Of a DNA stretch of 7,657 nucleotides, positions 3,175-7,657 are shown piece after piece. Origin of the DNA: Brevundimonas sp. (lineage in GTDB: Bacteria; Pseudomonadota; Alphaproteobacteria; Caulobacterales; Caulobacteraceae); the NCBI GenBank assembly GCA_024711185.1, contig JANJTI010000185.1, positions 1-7,657 of the forward strand, given 5' to 3'. The position numbers and the translations under genes are program-made. The notes below the pieces were generated by a model. That model saw only the letters and a list, made by a program, of their open reading frames with translations, ran no database searches and was not told the origin of the DNA. Positions within the stretch are counted from its first letter, which is position 1, and each line of letters starts with the position of its first letter.

Positions 3175-3669
3175 CTACTGGCTCTCGACTTCGGAGATGT
3201 GCAGACGGGCGGCCTGCAGCGCGCCGCTGCCATAGGTGCCGACCCAGATGTCGTACTGGCCGGACCGGGGCGAATTGAAGCGGAGCGATGGATTCAGTCC
3301 GTTCACGCCGCCGTCGTCGTCGCAGTACCACGAGCCGTCGGGCCCGTTGACGACGAGGGTGGTGTCGCTGGACGACGCGACCGACAGGATCAGCGGGTAT
3401 TCCCCCGCCTGATAGTCAAGGCGCACGTCAGGCGCGGCGGCGATGTAGCCGCTGCAGGCCGAGGACACGTTGGTCGCCGGAATGCCGCCGCCAGACTGGA
3501 GCGAGATCACCCGCGGATCGGGTTCGAAGCCGGCGGACAACCTGACCGTTCCATAGCTTGGCGCGGCGCTGTAGTCCGGCATCCCGCCGTTGCTCTGGTC
3601 GATCGATGCGCAGGCGACCAGCGCCGTCGTCGCCCCGGCGATGCCGATCGCCCGAAACAGATTGTGCAT
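3175..3669 (-). CDS. Lipoprotein with a pre-peptidase C-terminal (PPC)-like beta domain
   Basis: A 164-residue predicted lipoprotein. The N-terminus MHNLFRAIGIAG, a short hydrophobic stretch and the lipobox LVAC place the acylated Cys at residue 20. There is no Asp at +2, so outer-membrane sorting is likely. Residues about 72-162 form a beta-rich domain: ACSGY, then LDYQAGEYPLILSV, DTTLVVNGPDGSWYCDDDGG, NPSLRF, and SGQYDIWVGTY. This pattern resembles PPC-type domains, and in Caulobacterales and Hyphomonadaceae such proteins are often loosely labelled peptidase S1; no protease catalytic residues are seen. C72 and C116 may form a disulfide, and the CDDDGG loop could bind a metal. I chose ATG at 3669, not the upstream open extension, because GGAAGGGG lies six bases before it and the signal peptide starts there. 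Divergent from holC and convergent with the membrane protein gene. Confidence 0.8.
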   Translation of the reverse strand: MHNLFRAIGIAGATTALVACASIDQSNGGMPDYSAAPSYGTVRLSAGFEPDPRVISLQSGGGIPATNVSSACSGYIAAAPDVRLDYQAGEYPLILSVASSSDTTLVVNGPDGSWYCDDDGGVNGLNPSLRFNSPRSGQYDIWVGTYGSGALQAARLHISEVESQ

Positions 3670-3753
3670 GCGAAACCCCTTCCCTTGGTGGAGAGGCGAC
3701 GCTGGCATAGGCTCGCCGGCGCGGCGAGTGCCGAAACCTGATGGACGAATTGG
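3670..3753. promoter_or_regulatory. Divergent intergenic region between the lipoprotein gene and holC
   Basis: These 84 bp must contain the promoters for both directions, including that of the five-gene holC-inhibitor run. I cannot point to a convincing sigma-70 pair. A 7-bp inverted repeat with a 3-bp centre (CTCGCCG at 3712-3718, CGGCGAG at 3722-3728) lies midway and could be an operator or a small hairpin. GGAAGGGG for the minus-strand gene lies at its left end. Confidence 0.35.
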
Positions 3754-4221
3754 ATGGCGATGCCAGAGACCCGCAACGAGATCTGGTTCTACCATCTGGA
3801 GCGTTCCGAGCTCCGCGACGTCCTGCCGGGCCTGCTCGAGAAGACGCGCGAGCGAGGCTGGCGGGCGCTGGTGCGCGTGAACAGCGCCGGTTTGCTGGAC
3901 GAACTGGATGAGCGGCTCTGGACCTGGCGCGACGAGGCGTTTCTGGCCCACGGTCGGGCGACGGAGCCCCACGCCGGACGGCAGCCGATCCTTCTGAGCC
4001 AGTCCGGGGAGAACCTGAACGGCGCTCAGGCGCTGTTCATCGTGGACGACGCAGAGCTTGGCGATACGGAGAGCTACGAACGATGCTTCATCATCTTCGA
4101 CGGGCGGGACGAGACATCCCTGACGGCCGCCCGGGAACGGTGGAAGGTGCTGAAGCAGGGCGGGGCGAACCTCGCCTACTGGCGGCAGTCGCCGGAGGGA
4201 CGCTGGGAAAAGGCGGCCTGA
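3754..4221 (+). CDS. holC: DNA polymerase III subunit chi (HolC)
   Basis: Chi is the clamp-loader accessory subunit that contacts psi and single-strand binding protein at the replication fork. The 155-residue length is close to E. coli chi (147). Family landmarks are in order: IWFYHLERSEL (10-20), the GWRALVRV strand (35-42), LDERLWTWRDEAFLAHG (51-67, the classic LDxxLWT...FLxHG core), RQPILLS (76-82), then ALFIVDDAE and YERCFIIFDG (108-117), and a C-terminal ERWKVLKQ helix. ATG at 3754 and ATG at 3760 are both possible; neither has a strong Shine-Dalgarno. The downstream lipoprotein frame overlaps its 3' end, so holC leads an apparent operon with four envelope proteins. That is an odd pairing: in many alphaproteobacteria holC follows pepA. 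Function is confident, the exact start less so. Confidence 0.93.
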   Translation: MAMPETRNEIWFYHLERSELRDVLPGLLEKTRERGWRALVRVNSAGLLDELDERLWTWRDEAFLAHGRATEPHAGRQPILLSQSGENLNGAQALFIVDDAELGDTESYERCFIIFDGRDETSLTAARERWKVLKQGGANLAYWRQSPEGRWEKAA

Positions 4222-4538
4222 TCGGCCTCGTCGCGCTGGCGGGTTGCGCCAGCCCCGCCTCGGACGCGCCGGCGCCGCGCGCCGTGGAGCGGGCGCAGGT
4301 CAGCGTCGCGCCGGTGGGCAGCCGGGTGCCGCAGGATTCGACCACGGACCTGTGCCGAGCGGGCGAGCTGCAGTGGCTGGTCGGGAAACCGAAGGCCGAC
4401 ATTCCCGTTCCGGTGGACGTGGTGAACCGCCGCGTCACCTGCACGACCTGTCCGGTGACCGAGGATTTCGTCCCGCACCGGCTGAACATCTTCTTCAACG
4501 CGCAGACCGAGATCGTCGAACAGGTCCGCTGCGGATGA
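4203..4538 (+). CDS. I78-like peptidase inhibitor lipoprotein, copy 1 (start codon uncertain)
   Basis: First of four paralogs. The frame encodes a short hydrophobic leader LIGLVALAGC with a lipobox (LAGC), a linker, and a domain with DLC, WLVGKPKADIP, RRVTCTTCPVTEDF, PHRLNIFF and a terminal RCG. T-x-D-x-x-P-x-R-L-N plus the terminal Cys-Gly are the I78 inhibitor hallmarks. Three in-domain partners surround a CTTC at 4440-4451. No ATG, GTG or TTG sits at a sensible place. From CTG at 4203 the leader reads LGKGGLIGLV, with a Lys and with GGAGG (4194-4198) four bases ahead. CTG at 4218 would overlap the holC TGA. GTG at 4140 or ATG at 4083 would make an unusually long leader inside holC, and GTG at 4284 would drop the lipobox. 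The domain is confident; the 5' end is my best guess. Probably translationally coupled to holC, and periplasmic, anchored by lipid. Confidence 0.7.
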   Translation: MGKGGLIGLVALAGCASPASDAPAPRAVERAQVSVAPVGSRVPQDSTTDLCRAGELQWLVGKPKADIPVPVDVVNRRVTCTTCPVTEDFVPHRLNIFFNAQTEIVEQVRCG

Positions 4539-4557
4539 AACGCGAGGGAGCGACCTC

Positions 4558-4848
4558 ATGAGAACCCTGATGCTGAGTCTGGCCGTCGCCGGTCTGGCGG
4601 CCGGCTGCGCCGCCCCGGTCGATCCCGGGCCCGGCGCTCCGCCGGACGGAGCGCCGACGCAATGCCGGGCCGACCAGTACCGCTATCTGATCGGCCGCAA
4701 CCGCTCCGAAATTCCCCCGACGCCCGCCGGGCGCACGTGGCGGGTCGCCTGCACCACCTGTCCGGTGACGATGGACTACAATCCGAACCGTCTGAACATC
4801 TTCTATGACGAGGCGACCGGCGTGATCCGCCGTGTCGAGTGCGGATGA
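4558..4848 (+). CDS. I78-like peptidase inhibitor lipoprotein, copy 2
   Basis: A 96-residue lipoprotein and the cleanest member of the set. MRTLMLSLAVAG leads into the lipobox LAAGC (acylated C17), followed by a Pro/Gly-rich linker and the inhibitor domain: QC at 36, YRYLIGRNRSEIPP (41-54), RVACTTCPVTMDYNPNRLNI (62-81), then FYDEATGVIRRVECG to the end. C36 and C95 probably form the disulfide that closes the I78 fold. C65 and C68 lie where standard I78 proteins have an Arg-Pro-Gly-type loop. The start is firm: GAGGGAG (4544-4550) lies seven bases before ATG. The gene begins 19 bp after copy 1 and its TGA overlaps the ATG of copy 3 (ATGA at 4845-4848). The target protease is unknown; inhibition itself is inferred from family membership. 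Confidence 0.82.
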   Translation: MRTLMLSLAVAGLAAGCAAPVDPGPGAPPDGAPTQCRADQYRYLIGRNRSEIPPTPAGRTWRVACTTCPVTMDYNPNRLNIFYDEATGVIRRVECG

Positions 4849-5132
4849 CAGGCTGGACGATCCCGGCGGCGGGGGCGCTGCTTCTGGCGGCCTGCGCGCC
4901 CGCGCCGGCGGCCGATCCCGGGACCGGCCCGACCGGGGGGGCGGAGCGCTGCGACGCCGCCGGCACCCGCTCGCTGATCGGGACGCACGTCGGTGCGGTC
5001 ACCTTCCCGCAGGGCGCCAATGTGCGCATCGTCTGCACCACCTGTCCCACGACCCGCGATTACCGGCCCGACCGGCTGAACGTTCGCTTCGATCAGGCGA
5101 CGGGCATCATCAGGAGCGTCGATTGCGGCTGA
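4845..5132 (+). CDS. I78-like peptidase inhibitor lipoprotein, copy 3
   Basis: A 95-residue lipoprotein. MTGWTIPAAGALLLAAC gives a signal peptide with lipobox LAAC (C17), though the n-region lacks a Lys or Arg. The domain shows RC at 36, RSLIGTHVGAVTFP (42-55), IVCTTCPTTRDYRPDRLNV (62-80), FDQATGIIRSVDCG at the end. C36/C94 should be the structural disulfide and C64/C67 the loop pair. ATG at 4845 is preferred because it forms an ATGA overlap with the copy 2 stop; an in-frame GTG at 4839 would add Val-Arg and so a positive charge, and cannot be excluded. Its C-terminal half is closest to copy 2 (RDYRPDRLN against MDYNPNRLN), as expected of tandem duplication. Confidence 0.8.
   Translation: MTGWTIPAAGALLLAACAPAPAADPGTGPTGGAERCDAAGTRSLIGTHVGAVTFPQGANVRIVCTTCPTTRDYRPDRLNVRFDQATGIIRSVDCG
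5112..5125 (+). promoter_or_regulatory. Ribosome binding site and TTG start that set the copy 4 N-terminus
   Basis: AGGAG (5112-5116) lies six bases before TTG (5123-5125), inside the 3' end of copy 3. No ATG or GTG in this frame would give an intact signal peptide, so this pair decides the start. Confidence 0.65.
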
Positions 5133-5449
5133 TCGCTACCCTGTCTCTCGCCCTGACGGCCGCCCTGGCGACGGCCTGCGGCGAGCCTGTCGCGCCGGAG
5201 AGCCCCGAACCGGCGCAGGCGCCCGCCGCGCCTGCGCCACCCGCGACGGCCCCGCGCGACGGTTGCGGGGCGGCCGAGCGACAGGACTGGGTCGGTCGGG
5301 GCAGGGCCGACCTGCCCGCCGCGCCGGAGGGTGCGACCTGGCGTATTTACGAGACCGGGCAGCCGGTCACCCAGGACCTGCGCCCGGACCGGCTGAACAT
5401 CGAGATCGATCCGGACAGCCAGAGGGTGGTTCGGCTCAGCTGCGGCTGA
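5123..5449 (+). CDS. I78-like peptidase inhibitor lipoprotein, copy 4 (lacks the CTTC loop)
   Basis: A 108-residue lipoprotein and the most divergent member. From TTG at 5123 the leader is MRLIATLSLALTAALATAC with lipobox ATAC (C19), then a longer Pro/Ala/Glu linker and the domain: DGCGAAERQDWVGRGRADLP (46-65), WRIYETGQPVTQDLRPDRLN (73-92), IEIDPDSQRVVRLSCG. The aligned CTTC position reads ETGQ, so only the structural pair C48/C107 remains. The first block, CGAAERQxWVG, looks most like ordinary I78 proteins. The start is TTG, supported by AGGAG at 5112-5116 six bases upstream and by the fact that it gives a proper n-region (MRL). It overlaps copy 3 by 10 bases, so coupled translation is likely. 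Its stop lies 3 bp from the convergent dsbA-like stop, with no terminator hairpin in between. Confidence 0.8.
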   Translation: MRLIATLSLALTAALATACGEPVAPESPEPAQAPAAPAPPATAPRDGCGAAERQDWVGRGRADLPAAPEGATWRIYETGQPVTQDLRPDRLNIEIDPDSQRVVRLSCG

Positions 5450-5452
5450 CGC

Positions 5453-6238
5453 TCAGCCCCGCGCCTTGGCCTCGCGGATGGCGCGATCGATGTCCGCCGG
5501 CTGGATGCTGGGGCTGGCGCGGCCGTTGACGAAGAAGGTCGGGGTGCCGACCAGGCCCAGGGTCTGGGCGGCGGCCTGGATATCGGTCAGGTGGCGGGCG
5601 ACCTCGACGCCCTGCATCGCCGCCTCCGCCTCGGGCCGCGAGACGTCGTTGGCGGCGAGGATGCGGTCGACGGCCTCCGGATCGAGGGCCGGCTCGGCCA
5701 TCAGGTCGCGGAACACCGGGAGATACTTGCCTTGGCGGTGGGCCGCATTGGCCGCGCGGGCGGCGTAGTGGGAGGTCACCTCCGTCCCCCGGTCGAGGAT
5801 CGGCCAGTCCTTGAAGACGAAGCGGACGTCCGGGTGGGCCTCCATCAGGCGCAACACCTCGGGGGCGGTGGCCTTGCAGCCCGGGCAGCGGAAGTCGAAG
5901 AACTCGATCACCGTCACCCTCGCGTCGGCCGGGCCGAAGGCGGGATCGTCGGCGTCGACGGCGAGCAGGCCGGGATTGGCGGCGGCGCGCTGGTTGATGG
6001 CGTCGGCCAGCGCGTTGTCCTGGTTGGCCTGCAGGGCCGTACTCATCTCCTGCAGAATCTCCGGATGTTCCAGCAGGTAGGCGCGGACCTTGCCGTCGAA
6101 GGAGCCGCCGCCGCCGAGGTAGGGCGCGACGGCGAGGACAAGGGCCAGCGCGGACATGGCCACCGCCGCCGCGGCGCCGCGTTCGGCGGTGAACAGGCGT
6201 CGCGCGGGCGGTGGCGTCGTTTCAGGCGCTTCGGTCAT
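5453..6238 (-). CDS. DsbA-family thiol-disulfide oxidoreductase (Com1/ScsC/BdbD-like)
   Basis: A 261-residue membrane-anchored periplasmic thioredoxin-fold protein. Residues 1-20 are a Pro/Thr-rich cytosolic tail and 21-42 a membrane helix (or uncleaved signal). VRAYLLEHPEILQEM (51-65) is the helix that precedes the catalytic domain in Com1/ScsC-like DsbA proteins. The thioredoxin strand VTVIEFFDFRCPGC (108-121) carries the redox pair C118-x-x-C121, and GTPTFFVNG (231-239) is the cis-Pro loop opposite the active site. The expected role is oxidation or isomerisation of disulfides in exported proteins. CPGC differs from the usual CPHC of DsbA and the CGYC common in Com1-like proteins, which should shift redox potential. 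ATG at 6238 gives the expected tail; the Shine-Dalgarno is weak. It lies 20 bp behind the M48 gene, so they are probably one operon, and it converges on the inhibitor genes. Confidence 0.92.
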   Translation of the reverse strand: MTEAPETTPPPARRLFTAERGAAAAVAMSALALVLAVAPYLGGGGSFDGKVRAYLLEHPEILQEMSTALQANQDNALADAINQRAAANPGLLAVDADDPAFGPADARVTVIEFFDFRCPGCKATAPEVLRLMEAHPDVRFVFKDWPILDRGTEVTSHYAARAANAAHRQGKYLPVFRDLMAEPALDPEAVDRILAANDVSRPEAEAAMQGVEVARHLTDIQAAAQTLGLVGTPTFFVNGRASPSIQPADIDRAIREAKARG

Positions 6239-6258: not shown

Positions 6259-7657
6259 TCAGCCGGCGGCGGGCACGACGGCGGGCCGGTTCCGGCTGTT
6301 GCGACGGTCGAGGGCGTCGACGTCGTCCTGGGTGGCGCCGGAGGCGAAGACGATGTCCATGGCGCGGGTGTACTCGGCGGTGCCCGGCTGCAGCATGTCC
6401 CGGGCACGGAGCGCGAACTGGGTGGCCTGATCCTTCGCGCCCATGGCGAAGTACATCTCGGCGGAGGCGAGGCGGGCCTCGCCCTCCTTGCCCTGGCTGG
6501 CGTAGGCTTGGGACAGCAGCCGCCAGGCCATGGTGTTTTCGCGCTCCAGGGCGGCCGACCGTTTCAGGTGCTCGATCGCGGCCTCGAGCCGGGCCGGCTC
6601 CTGGGTCTCGATCATGGCGTGGGCCAGGTTGATGCGCAGCAGGGGCGCCTCGGGCATCAGGTCGACGGATTTCTGGTGGGCCCCGATCGCCTCGCCCGGC
6701 CGCCCTTCCTCGAACAGGATCTGCCCGCGCAGCTCCCAGAAGAAGGCGTTCTCCGGTTGCTCCTCCAGCAGGGCGTCGACCGCCGCGAGGGCGCGTTCGG
6801 TCTGGCCGTCCCGGTACCAGGCGATGGCCCGGGCGTAGCGGCCGGGAAGGGAGGCGTCGCTCTCGGGCCAGGTCCGCAGGGTGGTGTTCGGCGGGTCCAT
6901 GAAGGCGTGGATCTTGGCCAGCACCAACGCGTGCTGGGCCATCCGCTCGGGGCTGTCCGTCTTGCCGTAGTTCGACTGCTCGGCGACGAAGCGGCGCAGG
7001 TTCTCGATGCGCTGCGACGACAGCGGGTGGCTGCGGAAATAGGGGTAGCGGCGGGCGTCGGAGAACACCTCCTGCGAGCGGAAATTCTCGAAGAAGGAGA
7101 CGAGGCCCCGGCCGGACTCGCCGGCCTGCTGGAGGGCGCGGGCCCCGGTGTTGTCGGCCTCGCCTTCCTGATGGGTCATGTAGCGCAGGGCGCTGAGGGT
7201 GCCGAAATACTGGCTGTTGCCCAGCAGCACCGCGCCGGCCTGGGGCGCGCCGGCCGCGATGGCCAGGGCGCCGAGGGCCATGGTCATGAGCATCGGCTGC
7301 ATGCCGGCGCCCTGGGCCCCGTCCCGCAGGGTGTGGCGATTCTTGATATGCCCGGCCTCGTGAGCCAGTACGCCGAGTAGTTCGTTGGCGGTTCGGGTCT
7401 TCAGGATCAGGCCGGTGTTCACGCCCATGATCCGACCACGCGTGGCGAAGGCGTTCAGATCGTTCTCGTTGATCAGCAGGATCTCGACCTCGGTCGGCTC
7501 CAGCCCCATGGCGACGAGGACCGGGTCGGCCCACTCATGAATGATGCCCTCGATCTCGGTGTCGCGGATCGCGCTCTGGGCCGAGGCGGGCGAGGCCGCC
7601 GCCAGCACAAGGCCCATGGCGGCGACGACGCCCGTTGCGCGGAAGGCGGTGCGGGAC
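6259..7657 (-). CDS. M48 family zinc metalloprotease with TPR repeats (BepA/YfgC-like), 5' end outside the window
   Basis: A periplasmic M48 peptidase of the type that handles outer-membrane assembly quality control in E. coli (BepA). Numbering from Met at 7617: the zinc motif is LAHEAGHIKNRH (84-95, HExxH at 86-90), the third ligand Glu lies in EGEAD (151-155, ExxxD), and SHPLSSQRI (196-204) matches the conserved HP motif whose His acts as a regulatory switch in BepA. A hydrophobic stretch at 109-133 follows the zinc site, as in the family. From about 225 to the end are TPR-like helical pairs (ALAAVDALLEEQPEN, EAIGAHQKSVDLMPEA, AAIEHLKRSAALEREN). Translation stays open upstream of 7617 to the window edge and reads SRTAFRATGVVAA before MGLVLAAASPASAQ, a typical signal peptide with Arg in its n-region. 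The true start is therefore beyond 7657, and Met at 7617 lies inside the leader. Confidence 0.93.
   Translation of the reverse strand, partial: SRTAFRATGVVAAMGLVLAAASPASAQSAIRDTEIEGIIHEWADPVLVAMGLEPTEVEILLINENDLNAFATRGRIMGVNTGLILKTRTANELLGVLAHEAGHIKNRHTLRDGAQGAGMQPMLMTMALGALAIAAGAPQAGAVLLGNSQYFGTLSALRYMTHQEGEADNTGARALQQAGESGRGLVSFFENFRSQEVFSDARRYPYFRSHPLSSQRIENLRRFVAEQSNYGKTDSPERMAQHALVLAKIHAFMDPPNTTLRTWPESDASLPGRYARAIAWYRDGQTERALAAVDALLEEQPENAFFWELRGQILFEEGRPGEAIGAHQKSVDLMPEAPLLRINLAHAMIETQEPARLEAAIEHLKRSAALERENTMAWRLLSQAYASQGKEGEARLASAEMYFAMGAKDQATQFALRARDMLQPGTAEYTRAMDIVFASGATQDDVDALDRRNSRNRPAVVPAAG

Follow-up and report, generated by a model that had tools for sequence, protein, structure and literature searches.

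Why would a bacterium keep four small, similar lipoprotein genes in a row directly behind holC, a gene for a subunit of its DNA polymerase? The question is raised by a stretch of Brevundimonas sp. DNA (GenBank assembly GCA_024711185.1, contig JANJTI010000185.1) of 7,657 nucleotides. This window is an entire contig of a genome of 2.24 Mb that is 78% complete. Four consecutive frames on the same strand lie 3' of holC at 4203-5449, with stops at 4538, 4848, 5132, and 5449. That the row encodes predicted lipoproteins with an I78-type domain is supported by sequence and, for copies 2 and 4, by structural models. It is fairly probable that these proteins, presumably held in the cell envelope, are canonical (substrate-like) serine-protease inhibitors, each likely tuned by residue P1 of a predicted reactive site to a different protease specificity.

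The upstream anchor of the row is holC itself, which encodes the chi subunit of DNA polymerase III (3754..4221, + strand; PF04364, 114.7 bits; NF004347, 184.7 bits against a cut-off of 132). Each copy opens with a hydrophobic leader; a Cys at a lipobox-like position follows, then a linker and a domain of 62-63 residues. The residues at the lipobox place, read by eye from the sequence, are LAGC, AAGC, LAAC, and ATAC in copies 1 to 4, and its Cys is invariant in two alignments of 66 (A3) and 46 rows (A4). Common to the four domains are a first Cys, an (L/W)(V/I)G block, T-x-D-x-x-P-x-R-L-N, and a terminal Cys-Gly, and the four-row alignment (A1) has 15 invariant columns. In copies 1, 2, and 3, the first domain Cys is followed after 29, 29, and 28 residues by the first Cys of a CTTC motif, whose second Cys stands 27 residues from the last Cys in all three. 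Copy 4 has no CTTC. Copies 2 and 3 share the bases ATGA (4845-4848). With a start at TTG 5123, the one chosen in the database gene call P0121 (108 aa), the first 10 bases of copy 4 lie within copy 3. A preliminary description of this DNA had claimed the four frames with these shared features, the Cys spacings, and both overlaps, and all of them are present in the sequence as described. No sigma-70-type promoter was found in 3600-5600, which is compatible with one transcript but is no proof of it, and no RNA family reaches its gathering score within the window.

The same description had likened the domains to I78 inhibitors. Against the curated cut-off of PF11720 (Inhibitor_I78), 23.6 bits, copy 2 (4558..4848, + strand) scores 25.8 bits and copy 4 (5123..5449, + strand, TTG start) 28.1 bits. 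Copy 1 (4203..4538, + strand, likely CTG start), with 19.2 bits, and copy 3 (4845..5132, + strand), with 15.7 bits, fall under the cut-off and are placed by alignment, in copy 1 to copies 2-4, and by their orthologs. The likeness therefore holds at the Pfam level for two copies and not for the other two, and because two of four stay under the cut-off the row is filed as I78-like. The cut-off of PF00280 (potato inhibitor I; 24.5 bits) is reached by no copy, the best score being 17.4 bits for copy 2, with no match listed for copy 3, and an NCBIfam search of the four copies gave no match. A profile of 22 domains, copies 1-4 among them, has as its best PDB sequence match the Aspergillus elastase inhibitor AFUEI (3w0d; E 3.2e-5). 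Predicted folds point the same way: for copies 2 and 4, AlphaFold2 gives models similar to eglin c, CI-2, and AFUEI, and the top VIA-align rows include the first two.

The closest known inhibitors each differ from the row. AFUEI/AFLEI (MEROPS I78, PF11720) is a secreted single fungal protein with no lipoprotein anchor and, unlike copies 1-3, no CxxC before the loop; we know of no tandem row of it. Eglin c and CI-2, which belong to the potato inhibitor I family (PF00280), share with the row the P-V-T-P1-D loop register and, as far as the models of copies 2 and 4 indicate, the fold, but they have no disulfides, and their family's cut-off is the one that no copy reaches. Ecotin (I11) works in the E. 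coli periplasm as a broad-range inhibitor whose P1 is Met; it has a fold unrelated to that of the row, is not lipidated, and is encoded by a single gene. Brucella Omp19 belongs to another family than the row. It is an alphaproteobacterial outer-membrane lipoprotein whose unlipidated form is reported to inhibit proteases (PMC12620975).

Predicted reactive site

Aligned to eglin c, copy 2 reads PVTMDYNPNRLNIFY against PVTLDLRYNRVRVFY (E 0.23, by itself not significant). The reactive site of eglin c is its Leu-Asp bond. AFUEI is printed with DMITMEYIASRLN in a review (PMC8954713), and by the eglin register its P1 and P1' would be Met and Glu. By the register of eglin c and AFUEI, the predicted P1 is Glu in copy 1 (GAG, 4461-4463; domain 4347-4535), Met in copy 2 (ATG, 4771-4773; domain 4657-4845), Arg in copy 3 (CGC, 5055-5057; domain 4944-5129), and Gln in copy 4 (CAG, 5372-5374; domain 5258-5446), all on the + strand, while P2 Thr and P1' Asp are present in all four. 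The loop is T-[E/M/R/Q]-D in the row, compared with T-L-D in eglin c and T-M-E in AFUEI. The Arg loop of copy 3 has a solved parallel, since eglin chains with Arg or Lys at the P1 place (SPVTRDL, SPVTKDL) exist in the PDB in complexes, which by entry titles are with subtilisin and a trypsin variant.

Across the survey described below, P2 (Thr) and P1' (Asp) hardly vary, whereas P1 differs by copy and is more variable than every neighbour from P4 to P3'. P1 is not the single most copy-specific site of the domain, a possibility that was ruled out by its rank (11th of 63 columns by divergence and 14th by entropy). The earlier suggestion that the row inhibits several proteases gains support from a predicted P1 that differs between copies. 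The copy-specific pattern at the predicted reactive site had been overlooked at that time.

In the mechanism that we propose, the lipidated Cys would anchor each protein in the periplasm or outer membrane, and the loop would dock in the active site of a serine protease, where P1 would fill the S1 pocket. The first and last domain Cys would form a disulfide that closes the fold, as in AFUEI, and CTTC of copies 1-3 may stiffen the turn preceding the loop. The domain family, the fold, and the likely mode of action are already known. In the open-licence papers searched, bacterial I78 proteins figure almost exclusively as labels in databases or as candidates from screens. Judging by the search listings, none of these papers deals with I78 arrays in Brevundimonas or Caulobacter, and none was found on a holC-linked tandem expansion in one genus, a copy-specific predicted P1, or a near-constant single Met. 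Since the row offers naturally occurring paralogs that share a scaffold but carry Glu, Met, Arg/Lys, or Gln at the predicted P1, substrate-like inhibition and P1 specificity are directly testable.

Distribution and origin of the row

Among 101 Brevundimonas genomes drawn, 99 match PF11720 at E <= 1, but this threshold is lax, as 7 of 14 control genomes pass it too. A profile derived from the domains (E <= 0.001) finds at least one copy in all 91 genomes read and in 9 of the 10 that remain. One genome (G006, 88% complete) has no copy by either model, and another (G030), unmatched by the Pfam model, has two by the domain profile. At least one copy stands behind holC in 100 of the 101 genomes. 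In the source genome, just one weak match (E 0.137) was found outside the row in a search for a second I78 locus.

One locus per genome was typed in 100 genomes (91 of the 101 plus nine from a family draw), and nine further genomes read later, whose copies were named c1 and c2 by eye, bring the arrays to 109. The 100 arrays hold one (3), two (55), three (34), or four copies (8), and the nine further ones two each. The tandem arrangement is thus common in close relatives, with two to four copies in 106 of 109 arrays. HolC is encoded on the same strand in 98 of 100 loci, the other two being cut at a contig end. The idea that the proteins are made in fixed ratio finds no support, as species differ in the number of copies, from 1 to 4.

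The loop columns were left out when copies were typed, and 7 of 247 rows were ambiguous in copy assignment. The 100 arrays contain c1 in 99, c2 in 78, c3 in 61, and c4 in 9 cases. At P1, c1 has Glu (61), Gln (19), Met (13), or His (6); c2 has Met (75) or, once each, Gln, Thr, and Asp; c3 has Arg (26), Lys (17), Met (8), Glu (4), Gln (2), Thr (2), Leu (1), or His (1); and c4 has Gln (8) or Ser (1). CxxC is found in 99/99 c1, 76/78 c2, 61/61 c3, and 0/9 c4 copies of these arrays, and one c2 row among the nine further loci is without it. The ratio of nonsynonymous to synonymous substitution rates (dN/dS) is 0 to 0.32 in all 26 ortholog comparisons from eight genome pairs, which indicates that the copies are kept as proteins; for copy 2 of the source genome against its two nearest relatives it is 0.03. 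Since orthologous rows span the sampled genus and dN/dS is low, the row is not due to chance.

Outside the genus, single copies prevail. In the family draw, 168 of 199 genomes match, and 11 of the unmatched are not listed. All 40 Brevundimonas among the family genomes listed match, 39 of them with two or more matches, while the other 128 matching genomes have one match in 119 cases and two or three, not necessarily neighbours, in 9. Eighty named loci, the best 80 of 223, comprise 31 from Caulobacter, 22 from Phenylobacterium, 10 from Asticcacaulis, 16 unplaced, and 1 from Brevundimonas, and 78 of them have holC upstream in the same orientation. P1 in the 77 single-copy loci of this biased sample is Met (62), Gln (10), Leu (3), or Glu (2), a count that is biased against other residues because one of two search patterns required Met, Glu, or Gln at P1. 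Two Caulobacter records have three copies, with Glu, Ala, and Met at P1. In a draw from the order, 34 of 60 genomes match. Of nineteen loci fetched from other families of the Caulobacterales (L110 left out), 13 include a HolC match on the stretch, and six (L091-L096) carry two or three I78-like domains in a row behind holC. Three of these (L091, L092, and L093) combine a predicted Met-P1 copy with a Gln copy in one row.

The row is an in-place, lineage-specific expansion under purifying selection, since it is typical of Brevundimonas while most other Caulobacteraceae have a single copy. Amplification in place, as proposed before, is supported for copies 1-3; copy 4 is more distant and lacks CxxC. 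The survey suggests that the row arose by duplication in Brevundimonas, starting from one Met-P1 gene behind holC. Of the resulting copies, one would have kept Met as a core specificity, while copy 1 would have moved to Glu, Gln, or His and copy 3 mostly to Arg or Lys; where copy 2 lacks Met, copy 1 or copy 3 usually carries it.

The single Met copy and the likely targets

Met at P1 is present in 104 of 109 arrays: exactly one copy has it in 103 and two copies in 1, while no copy has it in 5. In the 100 typed arrays, a second Met copy accompanies a c2 with Met in only 1 of 75, and when c2 Met is lacking, another copy has Met in 20 of 25 (c1 in 13 arrays and c3 in 7). The five Met-less arrays are c1E+c3L, c1E+c2T, c1Q alone (twice), and c1Q+c3R, and overlooked copies were looked for in these loci and none seen. 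A model in which the two Met traits are dependent beats the independent one on two trees (likelihood ratio 30.8 and 28.4, four degrees of freedom). The re-fit ratio of 28.96 is reached by none of 67 usable null simulations, which were kept from 181 draws after discarding those in which one of the traits occurred in fewer than five genomes.

Several points weigh against reading selection into this pattern. Resolution of the HolC tree is poor (20 of 102 inner branches starred), each Met trait changes about 10 times on it, and the pattern was spotted before being tested. Just two independent pairs lie on well-supported branches, so that a sign test on them has no power. The apparent dependence between Met-P1 copies is a good lead, not proof. 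As a tentative rule, possible though doubtful, each Brevundimonas envelope would retain a single I78 inhibitor with Met at P1, a core of broad range that it could not do without, whichever copy supplied it, and the others would be freely retuned at P1 to changing foreign proteases. If this pattern of one Met kept is true, it indicates a shared protease pressure on the envelopes of these bacteria.

Shared ancestry, by which an ancestral Met survives in whichever copy stayed unchanged, without selection for one, seems to us somewhat unlikely as the source of the pattern. The prevalence of Met in the single-copy relatives (62 of 77) fits it, and so does the clustering of the 13 copy-1-Met genomes on the HolC tree, where copy-1 Met changes 4 times by parsimony; the two independent pairs leave it room as well. 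It does not readily account for exactly one Met in so many arrays, for the better fit of dependence on both trees and in the simulations, or for Met being carried by two different copies, c1 and c3, where c2 is without it.

As for targets, trypsin-fold matches are found in all 101 genomes (2 to 5 each) and a subtilase match in 76. Among the matches listed, a strong full-length trypsin-fold one occurs in G065 alone, and the rest appear HtrA-like from open-frame length and partial cover. These matches, and an M48 protease gene that is convergent with the row, are what an inhibitor of the cell's own envelope proteases (e.g., HtrA-type or subtilase) could be there to restrain. This role is nevertheless unlikely, as 18 of the 20 subtilase-free genomes listed (of 25) retain a Met-P1 copy and most trypsin-fold matches look HtrA-like; a preference for Glu, Arg, or Gln at P1 is not known from HtrA proteases. 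Nor should a canonical serine-protease loop inhibit M48 enzymes, since these are metalloproteases. By the same subtilase-free genomes, own subtilases are disfavoured as the reason for Met. With no obvious target among the cell's own proteases, foreign ones from predators, competitors, or hosts would be likelier. That the proteins are no inhibitors at all, CxxC marking thiol-redox or structural lipoproteins that use an inhibitor-like fold, is improbable: CxxC is nearly universal in c1 to c3 and a DsbA/ScsC-like gene adjoins the row, but copy 4 without CxxC retains the loop and the predicted fold, nearly fixed P2 Thr and P1' Asp beside a P1 varying by copy are as in an inhibitor loop, and CxxC-less relatives behind holC in other Caulobacterales retain the T-x-D loop.

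Start of copy 1 and neighbouring genes

Where copy 1 should start, neither ATG nor GTG nor TTG is present; CTG 4203 is there instead, and from it copy 1 would overlap holC by 19 bases (4203-4221). The overlap is 19 bases in all 76 copy-1 genes measured. A GKG motif follows the start-place codon in 77 of 99 copy-1 genes, and that codon is NTG in all 77 (CTG 64, TTG 6, GTG 5, ATG 2). In 34 of the 77, no ATG, GTG, or TTG occurs from the upstream stop to seven codons past the place, the place itself excluded. Note that the conservation of NTG is weaker evidence than it appears, because HolC, read in the other frame, has a Trp codon there that supplies the TG, as seen in the window sequence. It is likely, but not proven, that copy 1 begins at CTG 4203, inside holC.

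Three other loci (L013:3183-1 on the minus strand, L080, and L082) have, at the downstream end of the row, copy-4-like proteins in which a longer N-terminal part with the motif TYWAPEG..RNH precedes the I78-like domain. In the one case of L082, the N-terminal part has no Pfam match and the protein just a sub-cut-off I78 match. In some public records (P0028, P0052, P0088, and P0102), these I78-like lipoproteins are named hemolysin, a name to which the sequence gives no support.

Two genes are convergent with the row. The first (5453-6190, - strand) encodes a DsbA/ScsC-like thioredoxin-fold protein, and the second (6259-7617, - strand) an M48 protease with tetratricopeptide repeats that is BepA-like but under the NCBIfam cut-off. 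Both also follow the row in L079, L083, and L084, three of the six wider Brevundimonas loci. Divergent from holC, a gene at 3175-3666 (- strand) encodes a secreted-looking protein whose match to the PPC domain is weak and under the cut-off (17.5 bits), and such a protein is also seen in L080-L082.
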